From assembly GCA_002483145.1 (NCBI GenBank), contig DLHJ01000001.1, positions 1-64,000 on the forward strand: 64,000 nucleotides of DNA. The letters run 5' to 3'. Position numbers and translations under genes: made by a program. The notes under the pieces are model-generated. The model searched no databases. It was not told the origin of the DNA and saw nothing but the letters and a program-made list of their open reading frames with translations. Shown piece by piece: positions 22,011-52,000 of this stretch (position 1 is its first letter; each line of letters opens with the position of its first letter). This DNA comes from Cellvibrio sp. UBA7671. Its GTDB lineage: Bacteria > Pseudomonadota > Gammaproteobacteria > Pseudomonadales > Cellvibrionaceae.

Positions 22011-22078
22011 CGTCATCCCCGCACACGCGGGGATCCAGCTCTTGTAAAAATGGATTCCTGCGTTCGCAGGAATGACGG
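22011..22078. repeat. Nested palindromic repeat, copy 1 (metK-ahcY)
   Basis: Two small hairpins, one built on ATCCCCGC/GCGGGGAT and one on ATTCCTGCG/CGCAGGAAT, are arranged head to head, and their flanks CGTCAT...ATGACG and GATCCA...TGGATT also pair. The same design recurs at 47918-47997 and 49154-49218. This is a dispersed palindromic element, not a coding sequence. Confidence 0.8.
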
Positions 22079-44705: not shown

Positions 44706-46076
44706 CTACCAGTTGGTTAGCGGATGGGTGTTCAACTGATAAATTCTAATCCAGTCGTATTGCGTTACCATTGGATAAACGTTGCCGTATTTGTTTCCAC
44801 CGAAAACGTTTTGAATGCCGTCATTCGGGATCCAGAAATTCATCATCAATTCAGTCAAATTGTCCGGGATCGGCGTGTAAGACACTTGGGGCGCTACACA
44901 GGATGGATTACAGTCAATCCAGTTTTGATCCAGGGTTTTCAGCAACACACCATCCACATACCATTTAATTGCAGAAGGCGTCCATTCAATGGCATAGACT
45001 CGCCATTGGTCAGCAGGTGCTATGTCGATTTTATGTTCCCATGCACCCCATTGACGAGTGCCATTCCAATCGACAACGTTCACACCGTAAATTAAGTTGG
45101 CTTGGAATTTATCGGGACGACCACCTTCCAATTCAACATCAATCTCTTCCCACTCTCTGGGCGAGCCCTCGTGTTTGTAGGTGAAGAGCGAAGAGATGTA
45201 GCCAGTAGCAACATTTCTCGCCGGCGCCTTCATACGTGTTTCAATGCGACCATATTTGATTCGTTTCGATGGAACTGTGCGTAATTCGCCACAGGAATAG
45301 TTGTAAGCACCTTTTTCAGCTTTGTGGTCGTATGAATAGCTACCTGCCACATATTGATTGCGGATGACCAATTCCAGATTCCCGTTAACGACTTGCACAC
45401 CTTGGGGTTGGAAGCGGCAGATGGATTCGCCACCAACAGCGCCATCACCTTTGGCCCAAATGGCCGTGTTCAGACTATTAAAACGTTCATCCAACTTCAG
45501 GGTATAGCCAGAATAAACTCCGGTGTAGCCCGGGTAAGCGGTAGGTAAGTTTGAAGGTGGCGCGCTGTTGGCCACCACTTCAATCCAATTAAAATTCCAC
45601 CCCGTTGATTTGGAAAAAACACCCAGGCTGTAGGTGCCTGCATTGAGATTTACTGTTTTGGTGACAGTGGTCCAATTGGTCCAGTTACCTGCGGCTGGAA
45701 TAACCATGTCACCCAAGGGGATGCTGCCGCCGTTCAAGTCGACCGCTGCGGTTGCACCTGCGGGGCTCACAACGCGCATCTTGATGGTGTAGCTGCCAGT
45801 AGTGGGAATCACCAGATTGGAGTAAGCGAGCCACTCGTTTGGCTCTATCCAACCAACGTTATAAGTGCCGCCGGTAGTATCGTTTGTGTTTTCAATATCG
45901 ACGTTATCGGAGCGATATTTACCGCCTGAGTTACCTGCAGACGTGTCGTAGTAGCTACTGTAATCTTCCGCTTGGAATACGACCGCTTGCGCCGGTAATG
46001 CACACAGCCCTAGCAAGGCTGAGCTGAGTAGCGGAAGTTTGGATTGTTTTATAAGCAGTGAAAAAGCGTGACGCAT
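44706..46076 (-). CDS. Secreted CBM6-GH16 beta-glucanase (normal domain order)
   Basis: A 456-residue secreted enzyme: signal peptide (about 1-31), CBM6 (about 34-170, VFQAEDYSSYYDTSAG...WIEPNEWLAYSNLVIPTTGSYTIKMRV), Ser/Pro linker and GH16 (about 180-456). The catalytic motif is WEEIDVE with Glu311, Asp313 and Glu315. The beta-strand order is conventional: the YTLKLDERFNSLNTAIWAKG segment comes before the catalytic strand. It probably cuts beta-1,3 or mixed beta-1,3-1,4-glucans. ATG at 46076 has GAGG upstream; the ATG at 46091 has none. Two other GH16 genes lie nearby. Confidence 0.9.
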   Translation of the reverse strand: MRHAFSLLIKQSKLPLLSSALLGLCALPAQAVVFQAEDYSSYYDTSAGNSGGKYRSDNVDIENTNDTTGGTYNVGWIEPNEWLAYSNLVIPTTGSYTIKMRVVSPAGATAAVDLNGGSIPLGDMVIPAAGNWTNWTTVTKTVNLNAGTYSLGVFSKSTGWNFNWIEVVANSAPPSNLPTAYPGYTGVYSGYTLKLDERFNSLNTAIWAKGDGAVGGESICRFQPQGVQVVNGNLELVIRNQYVAGSYSYDHKAEKGAYNYSCGELRTVPSKRIKYGRIETRMKAPARNVATGYISSLFTYKHEGSPREWEEIDVELEGGRPDKFQANLIYGVNVVDWNGTRQWGAWEHKIDIAPADQWRVYAIEWTPSAIKWYVDGVLLKTLDQNWIDCNPSCVAPQVSYTPIPDNLTELMMNFWIPNDGIQNVFGGNKYGNVYPMVTQYDWIRIYQLNTHPLTNW

Positions 46077-46206
46077 AGTTGTTATCCTCATGGGAATGTA
46101 GAGCTTTATTAGATTTTTTGTTCACATCCTGTTTCGCTTTTGTGAGGTGGGGCGGGTATCACAAAGCGCGTAAAACAATCATAGGCACGCTTTTGGGTAA
46201 TAAATA

Positions 46207-46768: not shown

Positions 46769-47914
46769 ATGAAAACCCCCATCTTCAATATCCACGACCT
46801 TATCCTCGTACTCACTCTGGCAGTCTGCGTGCTGCTGGTGATTTTCCAGTGGCTGTTATCCAAACAAAAGGCGATTGCCTCGCAGTTGTTGTCGGGATTT
46901 TTTGTGTGCGTGGGCGCCAGTGCGCTGTGTAATTTGTTGTTGTGGAACGACTATATTGGCTTGCACAGCGACATGGCTAAAATGGCGCTGTCACTGGGAT
47001 TGGTGACGGCGGTTGTCGGTAAAAGTGTGTGTCTGTATTTGTATGTGGTGGCGATTACGCGGGCGAACTTTTCGTTGCGTGCAAAAGATGCACTGCATTT
47101 ATTGAATTTATTCGCGGTTGTCGGATGGGTGCTATGGGGTGGTTTGGATAGCGACCGTTTGCGCTTTCAGTCTGCTAGTCACACAGAATATTCCATTCAA
47201 CTTACGAATTACTTATGGCATTACCTGAAAATTTTACCGGTGGTGTATGCCTTTGCGGCAGCGCTGGAAATTTATCGCTACAAACAGCAGCTAAAACAAT
47301 TTTATTCCAGTTTGAGTTTGCAAGGTCCCTATTGGTTGCTACTACTGACATTGGGTTTTGCACTCAATTGGTTCTGGTCGCTCGTCGTGCATTTGCTCGG
47401 GCAGACAGTGAGTTTTTCTATCGCCGATAGTTTTGGCATTTTCGACAACTACATTACCTTTGTGTTGGTGAACGCACTGTTTGTGTACAGTTTGTTGTAT
47501 GCACATCAATTACTGGAAACCAAAGAAAAGCTCAAAGAAAAAGAAGTAGTTGCGCCGGCAGAAATATCGCCCGATGCCATTGCGCGCATTCGCAATACCA
47601 TGGAGAAGCAACAGCTGTATTTGAAACAGAATTTGAATATTGAAGACTTTGCGCGGCAGGTGGGCATTCATTTTCGCGAGGTATCCAGCATCATCAATAA
47701 AGAATTCAATACGAATTTTTTTGAATTTGTGAATGAGTATCGCGTGAATCGCGCCAAGCAGATGCTGGTTGATCCGCAATATGCAGAGATGACGATCCTG
47801 GATATTTTGCTGGAGTCCGGGTTTAACAGTAAGTCGTCATTTCACCGGTTTTTTAAACGCTATACCGGGATGTCAGCGGCGGAGTTTAGAAAACAAACAT
47901 CCGCTGCCGAATAA
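46769..47914 (+). CDS. Membrane-anchored AraC-family regulator
   Basis: A 381-residue protein whose first about 245 residues contain seven hydrophobic helices, followed by a linker (ETKEKLKEKEVVAPAE) and an AraC double helix-turn-helix at the C-terminus (ARIRNTMEKQQLYLKQNLNIEDFARQVGIHFREVSSIINKE... and ILDILLESGFNSKSSFHRFFKRYTGMSAAEFRK). In such proteins the membrane part senses an outside signal. In its neighbourhood are three GH16 genes, so it may control beta-glucan use. Direct targets are unknown. Confidence 0.88.
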   Translation: MKTPIFNIHDLILVLTLAVCVLLVIFQWLLSKQKAIASQLLSGFFVCVGASALCNLLLWNDYIGLHSDMAKMALSLGLVTAVVGKSVCLYLYVVAITRANFSLRAKDALHLLNLFAVVGWVLWGGLDSDRLRFQSASHTEYSIQLTNYLWHYLKILPVVYAFAAALEIYRYKQQLKQFYSSLSLQGPYWLLLLTLGFALNWFWSLVVHLLGQTVSFSIADSFGIFDNYITFVLVNALFVYSLLYAHQLLETKEKLKEKEVVAPAEISPDAIARIRNTMEKQQLYLKQNLNIEDFARQVGIHFREVSSIINKEFNTNFFEFVNEYRVNRAKQMLVDPQYAEMTILDILLESGFNSKSSFHRFFKRYTGMSAAEFRKQTSAAE

Positions 47915-47917
47915 ATA

Positions 47918-47997
47918 TGGATACCCGCGTTCGCGGGTATGACAAAAAATACAGTTGAATGGCAAATGTTTCGTCACTCCTGAACGCAGGAGTCCAG
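47918..47997. repeat. Nested palindromic repeat, copy 2 (araC-GH16)
   Basis: Unit TGGATACCCGCG...ATGAC (47918-47943) and unit CGTCACTCCTGAACGC...AGTCCAG (47972-47997) each form a hairpin. Orientation is opposite to copy 1. It lies between two convergent genes. Confidence 0.75.
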
Positions 47998-48001
47998 ATG
48001 T

Positions 48002-49033
48002 TTATTTATTGTTGCGACCTACGAGTGCCAATCCACCTAGTAATACTAACCATAATAAATTCACCGCACCGCCACCACCCGAACCACCCCCGCTAGTTGC
48101 TTTGGAAGTTGCTACTGATGACATTGCTACTGCAGTAGAACTCGCCGCTGCAATGCTGCTCGCGGCGATTGAACTAGGCGCAGCACTTGAAGCGGCTATC
48201 GAGCTTGCCGCTGAACTTGAAACCGCAACGGAACTCGCACTTGAACTGCTGCCAGGCGCATCCGCTGGTGGTGTACCACTAAAGCCGGTGGCGTTTTCTT
48301 TGGTTAATGCGAGAACCAAAATGCCATCTTTTACTACTACGTTCTCTGGTGCAAAATCCACGCGGTTGGTATCAAAACTCCAATTGGCTTTGCCCCAGCG
48401 AGCGCTATCAAAATTGTTGAAATCATCGCGCCAGCCACCCTCAAATGTTTTGGTAGTTGCATTGTAAGCTTTGTAGTCGATGTAATTTACAAATTGATAA
48501 ACTGGTAATACTGCATCGTCCCAGGCGCCTACCCAAGGCACTGATTCGGATGACCAGATATTAAAACGCAATGATTGTGGATTAGTGAGGCTAGTCACTG
48601 TGCTGGTACCGGTAATGCGACGCGCTTCTACGCCATCCACAAACCAGGCGACGTAATCTGGCGTCCACTCAACGACATAAGTGTGGTAAGCATCCGCGAG
48701 CGACGCCGGGGCAGTATGAACTTGTTCGGTGTGAATGGTCGGGCGCGAGCTGCCGAGAATAATATTGCTCTGCCACTTGGTCGCATTTTCTTTTCCAAAT
48801 ACTTCAATATCAATTTCTTCCCAAAAGGTATTGCCCACTTCCGAACCATTTTTGTAAGTAAAGAAAGTCGATAACACACCGCTGGCATTGGCCACGCGCA
48901 TGCGTATTTCATAGCGGCCATATAAATAGCTGTCGCTGGAATAAATTTCCGCGCCTTTGTAGGCTTTGGCATTAACAAACTGGGCAACCAATCCCAGAGT
49001 GATCGCAGTGAATACACACAACAAACGACGCAT
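48002..49033 (-). CDS. Secreted circularly permuted GH16 glucanase with GlyGly-CTERM-like tail
   Basis: A 343-residue secreted enzyme. After the signal peptide (cut near VNA-KAYKG) it begins directly at the strand before the catalytic motif: YGRYEIRMRV, then WEEIDIE with Glu73, Asp75 and Glu77. The segment that starts ordinary lichenases (GWRDDFNNFDSARWGKANWSF, then VVVKDGILVLALT) lies after the usual C-terminal strand. This is the permutation known from the Fibrobacter succinogenes 1,3-1,4-beta-glucanase. A long Ser/Ala linker follows, then GGGSGGGGAVNLLWLVLLGGLALVGRNNK-type tail, like GlyGly-CTERM (rhombosortase) signals. Start at 49033 has TGAGGT upstream. Confidence 0.88.
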   Translation of the reverse strand: MRRLLCVFTAITLGLVAQFVNAKAYKGAEIYSSDSYLYGRYEIRMRVANASGVLSTFFTYKNGSEVGNTFWEEIDIEVFGKENATKWQSNIILGSSRPTIHTEQVHTAPASLADAYHTYVVEWTPDYVAWFVDGVEARRITGTSTVTSLTNPQSLRFNIWSSESVPWVGAWDDAVLPVYQFVNYIDYKAYNATTKTFEGGWRDDFNNFDSARWGKANWSFDTNRVDFAPENVVVKDGILVLALTKENATGFSGTPPADAPGSSSSASSVAVSSSAASSIAASSAAPSSIAASSIAAASSTAVAMSSVATSKATSGGGSGGGGAVNLLWLVLLGGLALVGRNNK

Positions 49034-49153
49034 AACTTTTACCTCAGTGACAAAAACAGTTTTAAAAAGTAGTAAAAATAAATAGACGAGAAAAAATAAA
49101 AACGGGAGTGCAGGCAAGGTACCCGCAACCCCCAAAGGCTGAAACATCTCAGT

Positions 49154-49218
49154 CGTCATCCCCGCGAACGCGGGATCCACAACAACCCGCTGTACTCCTG
49201 CGTTCGCAGTAGTGACGA
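49154..49218. repeat. Nested palindromic repeat, copy 3 (between the two permuted GH16 genes)
   Basis: CGTCATCCCCGCGAACGCGG (49154 on) and TACTCCTGCGTTCGCAGTAG (49193 on) are two hairpins in copy-1 order. An open frame running through it into the downstream gene is repeat sequence, not protein. Confidence 0.75.
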
Positions 49219-49223
49219 ATATT

Positions 49224-50417
49224 TTAAATTTTAGTTAACTTGATCCAATCAATATTAAAGCCACCGCTGTTGGCGTAAATCGCCAAACTTTGTACACCGG
49301 CGTTCAGGTAAATATTGTGGCTGATCGTCTGGTAGGTACCCCAGCCGCCGGTGTTGGGTACACTGATGGTGCCCAAACCTACGCCGTTGCGATCCAAGGT
49401 AAATTGCGCTGTTGTGAGCGCTGAGGCCACGCGGTATTCCACTTTGTAAGTGCCGGTTTGCGGAATATTCACATTGTTGTATTTGAACCATTCACCCGCA
49501 TCGATATAACCCACGGTGCCACCAGAGACGGTGACGCTGCCGCCCACTTCATTAAAACTTTCTGCCTGGATGGTGATAGAGGTCGCGGGCGCACTGCTGC
49601 TACTGCCACCACCACTCGTGCCGCCATCGACTGGAGGAGTGCCGGTATAACCGGTCTGGCCTTCGCGTGTCAGTGCGAGAACCAGCGTGCCGTTTTTCAC
49701 TACCACGTTATTTGGATCGAAATCGGCGAGGTTTTCACCGAAGGTCCAGTTGGCTTTGTTCCAGCGGTTGGTGTCAAAACTGTTGAAGTCATCGCGCCAA
49801 CCGGTGCCGAAACTGTTGGTCGCCGCCACATAAGGTTTGTATTCAATATAGTTTACGAATTGGTACACCGGCAGGATGCTGTCATTCCAAGGGCCAACCC
49901 ACTCAGCGATATTTGCTGCCCAAAGGTTAAAGCGCAGGTCTTGCGGACTAGTCAGGCTGGTGACAAATTGTCCGCCAGTAATGCGCCGAGTTTGGGTGCC
50001 ATCTACATACCAGGCGATGTAATTAGGCGTCCATTCCAGCACATAGGTGTGGTAGCCGTCGCCCATGGAGAAGGGAGTGGTATGTACGCCTTCGGTTTTG
50101 GTGGTGGGGCGGTTGGTGCCGATAATCACATTGCTCTGCCATTGGGTGGCATTGTTCTTACCGAAGATCTCGATATCGATCTCCTCCCAAAATACGCCCG
50201 GTTGCTCGGAGCCATTTTTGTAAGTGAAGAAAGTGGACAACACACCGCTGCCCTTGGCGACACGCATACGCATTTCATAGCGGCCGTATTTGTAGGTTTG
50301 CTTCGAGTAGATTTCCGCAGCTTTATAAGGTTTGGCGGCGGCAGGGCTGGTAGCAGTGAAACCGATCAGGGTGGCGAACGCAAAGAGCACGCCGGTATAG
50401 CGACTGAGTTTGAACAT
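49224..50417 (-). CDS. Secreted circularly permuted GH16 glucanase with C-terminal CBM6
   Basis: A 397-residue secreted enzyme. Signal peptide (about 1-29), then the permuted GH16 (about 30-265): YGRYEMRMRV, catalytic WEEIDIE with Glu79, Asp81 and Glu83, QDLRFNLWAANIAEWVG, the old C-terminal strand YQFVNYIEYKPY, and then the normally N-terminal GWRDDFNSFDTNRWNKANWTF and LVLALTREG. A Gly/Ser linker leads to CBM6 (about 285-397, ITIQAESFNEVGGSV...NIDWIKL). It is a close paralogue of the adjacent gene but ends in a binding module instead of a sorting tail. Start at 50417 follows AAAGG. Confidence 0.9.
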   Translation of the reverse strand: MFKLSRYTGVLFAFATLIGFTATSPAAAKPYKAAEIYSKQTYKYGRYEMRMRVAKGSGVLSTFFTYKNGSEQPGVFWEEIDIEIFGKNNATQWQSNVIIGTNRPTTKTEGVHTTPFSMGDGYHTYVLEWTPNYIAWYVDGTQTRRITGGQFVTSLTSPQDLRFNLWAANIAEWVGPWNDSILPVYQFVNYIEYKPYVAATNSFGTGWRDDFNSFDTNRWNKANWTFGENLADFDPNNVVVKNGTLVLALTREGQTGYTGTPPVDGGTSGGGSSSSAPATSITIQAESFNEVGGSVTVSGGTVGYIDAGEWFKYNNVNIPQTGTYKVEYRVASALTTAQFTLDRNGVGLGTISVPNTGGWGTYQTISHNIYLNAGVQSLAIYANSGGFNIDWIKLTKI

Positions 50418-50548
50418 AGCGAATACCTTTATCATTAATTATTAGAGGCAATTATTAAAAACGCTTTTGTCTGTAGTAGACCGTGGCGACTGCGGCCTGC
50501 CACGAGCTTATACTCCCCAAATTGCCAAACTTGGTCGCACCAGTTTGA

Positions 50549-50696: not shown

Positions 50697-51266
50697 ATGA
50701 CTAGCCCGATTGAAAATCAGGACGATGAGCTGATCAACCTCATCGCCCGTTGCGCGCTACGCGATCAAGCCGCGCTCAAAACGCTGTTTGAGCGGGTGAG
50801 CCCCTACCTGAATGCTATCGCCTGGCGCATCCTGAAATCCAAAGAGCTGACTAACGAGGTATTGCAGGAAGCGTTTTTGCAGATCTGGAATAACGCGGCC
50901 AGCTACCGGCCGCACCTCGCCAAGCCGCTGACCTGGATGGCCAGCATTGCGCGCTACCGGGCGCTGGATCGGCTCGCATTAGAGCAGCGGATTAGCGCTA
51001 AATTTATCGCCCATCCTGATGGGATAGAAGATATACCCGGCGGCGATGAACCCGAGCACAGTGTTGGCGCCAGCCAGCTGCGGTTCCACTTACACCAGTG
51101 TTTGACCACTCTGGGCGACAACATCAAACGCAGTATCGAGCTAGCCTATTTATATGGCTACTCGCGCGAAGAGATCGCGCAGCAATTTGCCACCAATACC
51201 AACACCGTTAAATCCTGGCTGCATCGCGGCGCTGAAAGGTTGAGACTATGCCTAGAAAGCAAATAA
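50697..51266 (+). CDS. ECF-type RNA polymerase sigma factor
   Basis: A 189-residue sigma-70 family protein with region 2 (about 20-90, LFERVSPYLNAIAWRILKSKELTNEVLQEAFLQIWNNAASYRP...WMASIARYRALDRL) and region 4 (about 130-185, LGDNIKRSIELAYLYGYSREEIAQQFATNTNTVKSWLHRGAERL). It resembles the SigK/RskA-type ECF group. The next gene overlaps it by 19 bp and encodes the probable anti-sigma factor. Target promoters are unknown; auto-regulation of this locus is likely. Confidence 0.93.
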   Translation: MTSPIENQDDELINLIARCALRDQAALKTLFERVSPYLNAIAWRILKSKELTNEVLQEAFLQIWNNAASYRPHLAKPLTWMASIARYRALDRLALEQRISAKFIAHPDGIEDIPGGDEPEHSVGASQLRFHLHQCLTTLGDNIKRSIELAYLYGYSREEIAQQFATNTNTVKSWLHRGAERLRLCLESK

Positions 51267-52000
51267 GTGCGTCTGGAAGCCAAACACCAGAGCCACCTTT
51301 GGACAACAAGAGCCTCGCGTTCGACTATGTCACCGGCGTACTGCGCGGTGCCGAACGCGAGCAATGCGAACAGCGCCTGCGCAGCGATACCGCTCTGCAG
51401 GCAGAGGTCAGCTTCTGGGAAGAGCAGCTCATGAGCCTTAGCGATGAACAACAAGGCATCAAACCCGACCCGGAAGTCTGGCGCGGTATTGAGGCGCGTC
51501 TACAACAGCAAACGCGCCCGGCTGATACGAGGCCATCCAGATTTACCTGGCTCTGGCCCAGTGTCTCCGCATTTGCGACTGTGATGCTCGCAGTGTGTAT
51601 TTGGCTACTGATGGCGCGCGACCCACTGCAACAACCCAATGCCGATTATGTAGCCGTACTTACTGACGACACAGGTGCGCCACAACTGACTGTACTCACC
51701 GCTACTGGCGGCGCGCAGCTTTGGTTGAAATGGGAGGCGGTGGAGATTGCGGATGATAAAAACCTGCAGCTCTGGGCGGTTTCCAAACGCGATGGCCAAA
51801 TCCGGCCGCTCGGCGTATTTGCGCAAACCGATATCCAGCAATTGCCACTCACAGTCCCACAGTGGCGGCTGATTAAAGATTCCTCACATTTGATCCTGAC
51901 GGAGGAAGACGTAGGAGGTTCACCTTTGGATGAACCCAGTGACGTCGTCTTGGCAAAAGGTGTTTGCGTTCTCCTCGCACAGGTGAAGAAGGCCATATAA
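51248..52000 (+). CDS. RskA-type anti-sigma factor
   Basis: A 250-residue single-pass membrane protein. The N-terminal part (about 18-75) is the cytoplasmic sigma-binding region (DYVTGVLRGAEREQCEQRL...FWEEQLMSL). One helix (about 98-122, TWLWPSVSAFATVMLAVCIWLLMA) is followed by a periplasmic RskA domain (QLTVLTATGGAQLWLKWEAV...NLQLWAVSKRDGQIRPLGVF). It overlaps the sigma gene by 19 bp, so they are co-translated. It should hold the sigma factor until a signal triggers release. The signal is unknown. Confidence 0.9.
   Translation: MPRKQISASGSQTPEPPLDNKSLAFDYVTGVLRGAEREQCEQRLRSDTALQAEVSFWEEQLMSLSDEQQGIKPDPEVWRGIEARLQQQTRPADTRPSRFTWLWPSVSAFATVMLAVCIWLLMARDPLQQPNADYVAVLTDDTGAPQLTVLTATGGAQLWLKWEAVEIADDKNLQLWAVSKRDGQIRPLGVFAQTDIQQLPLTVPQWRLIKDSSHLILTEEDVGGSPLDEPSDVVLAKGVCVLLAQVKKAI

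Follow-up and report, generated by a model that had tools for sequence, protein, structure and literature searches.

Tandem, naturally circularly permuted GH16 glucanase genes in Cellvibrio and the distribution of the permuted form across bacterial phyla

We analysed a stretch of 64,000 nucleotides from Cellvibrio sp. UBA7671 (hereafter the window), in which two adjacent minus-strand genes, designated copy 1 and copy 2, encode glycoside hydrolase family 16 (GH16) domains. The original prediction, made from the letters alone, held that both proteins are natural circular permutants, in which the strands that open ordinary lichenases (segment B) follow the core with the catalytic motif (segment A). 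The start of copy 1 was taken as the ATG at 49033, with GAGGT just upstream, and that of copy 2 as the ATG at 50417, in agreement with the original prediction; start codons and signal peptides of both copies were assigned by eye. The features of the pair are as follows.

49224-50435, minus strand: full open reading frame (ORF) of copy 2 (ORF list)
49224..50417, minus strand: copy 2, permuted GH16 glucanase with C-terminal CBM6, 397 amino acids (aa), probably secreted (profiles, phmmer, AlphaFold2, Foldseek)
49830..50336, minus strand: copy 2 segment A, core strands with the catalytic WEEIDIE, first in the chain (alignment, order scan, model)
49626..49802, minus strand: copy 2 segment B (WRDDFNSFD...LVLALT...GTPPVD), opening strands of ordinary GH16, last in the chain (segment-alone search, order scan)
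49230..49568, minus strand: copy 2 CBM6 (PF03422, E 1.2e-25; matches to 8zvk, 5fui and 1uxz)
48002-49180, minus strand: full ORF of copy 1 (ORF list)
48002..49033, minus strand: copy 1, permuted GH16 glucanase with Ser-rich linker and GlyGly-CTERM-like tail, 343 aa (phmmer, profiles)
48464..48970, minus strand: copy 1 segment A (phmmer, alignment)
48260..48436, minus strand: copy 1 segment B (phmmer, alignment)
48014..48076, minus strand: copy 1 GlyGly-CTERM-like sorting signal (TIGR03501, 16.9 bits with the cut-off at 15.5; E 0.096, weak by itself)

The two copies are 67% identical. PF00722 (GH16) scored 93.1 and 92.1 bits in them, above the gathering cut-off of 22, and covered only positions 26-160 and 28-160 of the 175 in the profile. 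The expectation that one copy ends in a CBM6 and the other in a sorting-type tail was borne out. The CBM6 of copy 2 reached 90.6 bits (cut-off 28.9), and its relatives are of endo-1,3-beta-glucanase and cellulase origin (5fui and 1uxz). For copy 1, the tail exceeds the TIGR03501 cut-off and the genome encodes a rhombosortase (139.5 bits against a cut-off of 84), which is the combination looked for in the GlyGly-CTERM/rhombosortase test, with a weak match of the tail itself.

Both proteins were aligned with the Fibrobacter succinogenes 1,3-1,4-beta-D-glucanase (1MVE) by phmmer. Residues 69-307 of copy 1 correspond to chain residues 2-243 in a single colinear stretch (E 8e-67), and residues 33-270 of copy 2 to chain residues 3-243, likewise in one stretch (E 1e-61), with residue numbers counted from the full ORF starts and a shared stretch of about 237 residues. 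The motif 'AKDFSGAELY', which the original prediction had named for the Fibrobacter enzyme, is present in the 1MVE chain. Matches to ordinary lichenases (1gbg, 3o5s, 3wvj and others) were confined to residues 27-201 of copy 2, that is, to the core. Segment B of copy 2 (59 aa), searched alone, matched the C-terminal end of Fibrobacter chains (E 1e-12 to 2e-11; 1mve 186-242) but, in the ordinary lichenase 3wvj, the N-terminal residues 12-57 (E 2.6e-4). Weaker, non-significant matches (E 0.16 to 3.4) all lay near chain N-termini (5ocq 23-65, 7kr6 38-97, 5nbo 38-97 and 1dyp 21-63), and two transport-protein chains were also matched (E 0.72 and 0.79). The nearby GH16 gene at 44706 was found to have the normal order, as had been proposed: its residues 202-450 match 1GBG 8-211, and a weak segment B match at residues 196-256 (12.6 bits) precedes the core at 286-397.

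The order of A and B was then scanned with hidden Markov models in the ORFs of all loci fetched by that time, the viral locus L054 being left out. Segment A occurred in 275 ORFs, 229 of them unique, of which 179 had the order A-B, 27 had B-A and 23 had A alone; this ratio is not a census, since most of the loci had been retrieved through their resemblance to permuted queries. The linker that joins the old chain ends measured 7-15 residues (median 13) in 179 of the 179 unique permuted ORFs. Following their presumed signal peptide, the Cellvibrionaceae permutants compared here open with 'AKPYKAAE' or 'AKPYKGAE', and their segment B closes with 'LVLALT...GTPPVD' or nearly so. The permuted N-terminus 'AKPYKGAE' is equivalent to 'LSLT..KPYRGVEM' of the ordinary form, and in L230, an ordinary enzyme that is sister to the permuted rows in a tree of segment A, B passes into A as 'LHLSLTAADDPEKPYRGVEMRS'. 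Across 16 aligned domains W50, E52, D54 and E56 are invariant, and the catalytic ExDxE is intact in both copies. In the alignment, E54 and E58 of the Fibrobacter row, which we take to be the two catalytic glutamates of that enzyme, stand opposite E52 and E56 of copy 2 (domain numbering). We thereby confirmed that both genes encode GH16 domains in naturally circularly permuted order, colinear with 1MVE.

The fold was evaluated on an AlphaFold2 model of copy 2, with copy 1 placed by alignment. The model shows one jelly-roll domain (pLDDT 95.0, pTM 0.90), indicating that segments A and B form a single jelly roll in copy 2. In Foldseek comparisons, it gave template modelling (TM) scores of 0.92-0.95 with the Fibrobacter structures, the closest found, 0.80 and 0.78 with the engineered permuted Bacillus enzymes 1cpm and 1cpn, and 0.47-0.59 with ordinary lichenases; the fall against the last group is expected of a permutation, because the structure comparison is sequential. 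The finding named beforehand as one that would overturn the permutation was a late WRDDF segment forming a separate module; the GH16 domain would then simply be truncated at its N-terminus, an arrangement with which the end of the Pfam GH16 profile before that segment would agree. We consider it extremely improbable, given that the model packs the segment into the same jelly roll with high confidence, that the Fibrobacter crystal structures match the model end to end, that the segment alone matches the N-terminal strands of an ordinary lichenase, and that its distance from the core is constrained in every unique permuted ORF to the linker lengths given above.

In the ordinary chain, segment B with the opening strands precedes segment A with the catalytic ExDxE. 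In the pair, the new chain ends lie in what is ordinarily the loop leading from the last B strand (LxLT) to the first A strand (KPYxGAE), and the linker connects the old ends; this puts A in front and leaves the jelly roll unchanged. Duplication, fusion and trimming, the textbook route to circular permutation, may have produced this arrangement.

GH16 is a family of retaining glycoside hydrolases, and both copies would most likely cleave mixed-linkage beta-1,3-1,4-glucan in this manner. The CBM6 would probably hold copy 2 on its substrate, and the tail of copy 1 is probably processed by the rhombosortase, which would deliver the protein to the surface or the medium. The activity, substrate, secretion and sorting of the copies are deduced here, with secretion, CBM6 targeting and rhombosortase processing read from the modules. 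An early division of GH16 separates ExDxxE from ExDxE, and ExDxE is described for the licheninase subfamily GH16_21 in Viborg 2019 (PMC6827312). Since specificity varies within GH16 and the relatives of the copy 2 CBM6 include an endo-1,3-beta-glucanase as well as a cellulase, laminarin or some other beta-glucan might be the true substrate of the copies, or one of them might have lost its activity. We judge this to be unlikely, considering that the best-matching solved catalytic domains are 1,3-1,4-beta-glucanases, that the motif is ExDxE and that the catalytic letters are intact in both copies.

The pair was followed across the genus, with an adjacent pair defined as two permuted ORFs on one strand whose A segments start within about 1.4 kb. 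Such a pair was present in 16 of the 21 genus genomes; among the other five, G016 had none, G026 had one, G031 had one partial permuted form beside an ordinary-type gene, and G024 and G028 had theirs on different contigs. Among the loci with tails read, the upstream-copy orthologues (16 genomes) end in '...GGFNIDWIKLTKI' or nearly so, like the CBM6 of the window, and the downstream-copy orthologues (16 genomes) carry a Ser-rich linker, after which a Gly-rich stretch was seen in every locus long enough to include it (the locus end cuts off the tail in L011, L012 and L016). Because both tail types are alike in every genus genome read (16 per copy), the tail modules of the two copies probably diverged before the genus diversified. 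The earlier proposal of duplication followed by module exchange is thus retained for the duplication, the copies being sisters in the tree described below, and not for the word 'exchange', the tail types being constant across the genus genomes read. One TAG was counted within the matched frame of the copy 2 orthologue in L012 (G032:C252), and a third paralogue of the genus carries CBM10 and CBM2 (L122).

The distribution of the permuted form was surveyed at several levels. In the family to which Cellvibrio is assigned by GTDB, 44 of 144 genomes matched at E 1e-10, and the permuted form was counted from the listing in 41 of the 144, comprising 20 of the 21 genus genomes (G031 with its partial form among them) and 21 outside the genus; G053, G131 and G138 had partial matches only. 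In a contig search for relatives, the best 80 of 131 were nearly full-length colinear matches, the shortest being L076 (3-223) and L100 (2-229). These 80 include Fibrobacter and other Fibrobacteraceae, Chitinispirillaceae, Sorangium and other Polyangiaceae, Cytophagales, Flavobacteriales, Colwelliaceae and Cellvibrio; many are metagenome-assembled genomes, and Sorangium, Fibrobacter intestinalis and C. mixtus are strain records.

Phylum surveys were run at E 1e-15. In Fibrobacterota, 99 of 150 genomes matched, G1205, G1234 and G1254 only weakly. For the other three phyla the counts are lower bounds, because scoring in each genome stopped after the first 7 to 12 candidates: at least 49 of 395 genomes matched in Bacteroidota, at least 36 of these, by our own count, along almost the full length of the model, including the chosen centre; at least 8 of 235 matched in Myxococcota, where among the candidates scored the permuted form appeared only in the chosen centre; and at least 33 of 398 matched in Pseudomonadota, at least 4 of them permuted (the genome of the window, G041 of its family, G770 and G628). 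The permuted form is thus frequent in Fibrobacterota, of moderate frequency in Bacteroidota and Cellvibrionaceae, and patchy elsewhere. The permuted form was also sought on plasmids, where 171 records matched, none over 80% of the query; among viral contigs one locus matched (L054), with an ordinary-order GH16 inside a 758-aa ORF. By our own count, 66 of the 99 matching Fibrobacterota genomes had at least two matches each. Tandem arrangements of permuted genes were likewise found in Myxococcota (L116, L127) and at one Fibrobacter locus (L075), and many Bacteroidota have a permuted GH16 of about 600-650 aa (L192-L209, L248).

For the main tree, the 178 of 179 unique permuted ORFs that were long enough were reduced to 61 rows at 72% identity and 26 of 27 ordinary ORFs to 20 rows at 80%; the 23 ORFs with A alone were excluded, the representative L021 was swapped for copy 1 of the window, and 222 columns were used. 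On one side of a branch supported at 99/94 stood 60 of the 61 permuted rows. The window copies are sisters (94/90, just under the level at which branches were starred), as the proposed duplication would have them, and are loosely grouped (94/52) with the third Cellvibrio paralogue L130 and with G040. A divergent permuted form from the Fibrobacterota survey (L243-L245) lies beside L121 in the tree. In the A-only tree, built on segment A with 20 A-alone ORFs added, all 61 permuted rows were on one side and the ordinary enzymes L230 and L048 were their sisters (82), a pairing not singled out in the main tree.

The original prediction had further suggested transfer from, or ancestry shared with, Fibrobacter-type enzymes. 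The homology stands, as the near full-length matches to 1MVE show; a special link between Fibrobacter and Cellvibrio is not supported, the form being present in Bacteroidota, Myxococcota and other Pseudomonadota as well. A recent direct transfer of the permuted gene from Fibrobacter to Cellvibrio, or in reverse, could explain the same permuted order and the 43-46% identity to the Fibrobacter enzyme. However, by path length the nearest sequences to the Cellvibrio copies, after their own paralogues, are those of Sorangium and Cytophagales (many inner branches there are open), and an exclusive clade of 15 Fibrobacteraceae rows, drawn from the Fibrobacteraceae clade of the tree itself, with 3 Cellvibrio rows was rejected (log-likelihood difference 46.8; approximately unbiased test, p-AU 0.027). 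Direct transfer is therefore not supported, and we hold it to be very unlikely.

Collectively, the pair very probably represents two putatively secreted, naturally permuted GH16 endo-glucanases, most likely mixed-linkage lichenases, that arose as tandem duplicates within the Cellvibrio lineage; the permuted line behind them, now present in at least four phyla, probably had a single origin. One origin would be the simplest reading and fits the trees, short of proof. Several observations pull the other way. The NCBIfam BglS equivalog NF047856 scored 110.3 and 127.9 bits in the two copies, below its curated cut-off of 300; the permuted chain order might be the cause of the low score, and the model gives no functional label. 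The GlyGly-CTERM match of copy 1 was unlisted by hmmscan up to E 1, and the TIGR03501 cut-off was passed also in 1 of 14 control genomes. Segment B was found on both sides of A in none of the 275 ORFs (229 unique) of the fetched loci, which leaves no B-A-B intermediate there. The split in the A-only tree had a support of 44 in a quick search. Finally, in the main tree the permuted Bacteroidota row L235 stood among the ordinary rows on a branch of length 1.22.

L235 (G846:C63:59878-60555) is a divergent permuted GH16 with an NEIDFE motif and a CBM48-like stretch, and its position could reflect a second permutation event or a long branch. A repeated origin of the permutation, with an independent event in L235, would agree with its place on the ordinary side of the main tree. 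We regard such a repeated origin as improbable: the branch is long, a constraint uniting all 61 permuted rows cost 0.13 log units (p-AU 0.506), and the A-only tree places L235 with the permuted rows, at low support. We find it reasonably probable that the permuted lichenase, far from being peculiar to Fibrobacter, is an old GH16 lineage with a single origin, present in at least four phyla and perhaps derived from ordinary enzymes of the type of L150, L230 and L048, whose Polyangiaceae and Cellvibrionaceae genomes contain permuted forms as well, and that it would deserve a subfamily of its own.

The genes that flank the pair in the window are as follows.

44706..46091, minus strand: ordinary-order GH16 (licheninase type) with N-terminal CBM6; 46076 from the second Met (profiles, 1GBG match)
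46769..47914, plus strand: AraC-type regulator, convergent with the pair (profile scan)
50697..51266, plus strand: ECF-type (extracytoplasmic function) sigma factor, divergent from the pair (profile scan)
51248..52000, plus strand: RskA-type anti-sigma factor (profile scan)

Among loci with enough flank, an AraC gene lay near the permuted gene or genes in four of five (L026, L132, L133 and L134; not L053), and sigma and anti-sigma genes adjoined the pair in 4 of 11 (L019, L053, L131 and L133), so that the setting of the pair is only partly kept. With 4 of 11 loci, the sigma and anti-sigma genes were dropped as fixed partners. Neither the ordinary GH16 nor the SMR gene was found at E 1e-8 in L132, L133 and L134, whose flanks extend about 2.5 kb past AraC, and on these three loci the idea that the gene at 44706 is part of a conserved cluster was rejected.

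A short palindromic repeat, CCCGCGTTCGCGGGxATGAC, occurs in the window at 49155-49179 (minus), 47919-47943 (plus), 22012-22036 (minus) and 22052-22076 (plus), these four copies being found when as many as 3 mismatches from a 25-base form were allowed. One copy lies between the two glucanase genes and one just past copy 1. In the genome, the 20-base core pattern has 16 exact copies and its reversed control none.

Natural permutation of the Fibrobacter enzyme is stated in the title of the PDB entry 1MVE, and a passage of PMC2395249 lists bacterial beta-glucanases as examples of natural permutants. The Fibrobacter enzyme (1MVE, 3AXD, 3HR9) shares with the window pair the permuted order, the breakpoint, the fold and a full-length match, at 43% and 46% identity to the two window domains; the window proteins differ from it in their C-terminal parts (CBM6 or GlyGly-CTERM-like tail) and their tandem pairing. 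The ordinary lichenases 1GBG, 3O5S and 3WVJ (subfamily GH16_21 of Viborg 2019) have the same core, ExDxE motif and strands, with segment B first, whereas it is last in the window pair. The engineered Bacillus lichenase 1CPM, the second-best structural match after Fibrobacter, is also a permuted jelly roll; it is man-made, while the window pair is natural. The Bacteroidota proteins L192-L209 have the same A-B order as the window pair and differ in carrying a malectin domain and a tail of the type IX secretion system (T9SS) type, seen in the two that were scanned (L192 and L196), and in branching early among the permuted rows when these are rooted on ordinary ones. The words 'permut' and 'Fibrobacter' do not occur in the main text of Viborg 2019 (PMC6827312), and among open-licence papers, mostly judged by their listing, none was found on the spread of permuted GH16 beyond Fibrobacter. 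The permutation is already known from Fibrobacter; what is new is its breadth across Fibrobacterota, Bacteroidota, Myxococcota and Pseudomonadota.

For annotation, these findings carry a warning, in that the general GH16 profile captures only part of permuted domains. For the biology of the family, the combination of a natural permutation, a common breakpoint, a likely single origin and genomes that also encode ordinary relatives opens the fixation of a permutation to testing, since stability, folding and domain attachment can be contrasted directly between ordinary and permuted forms.

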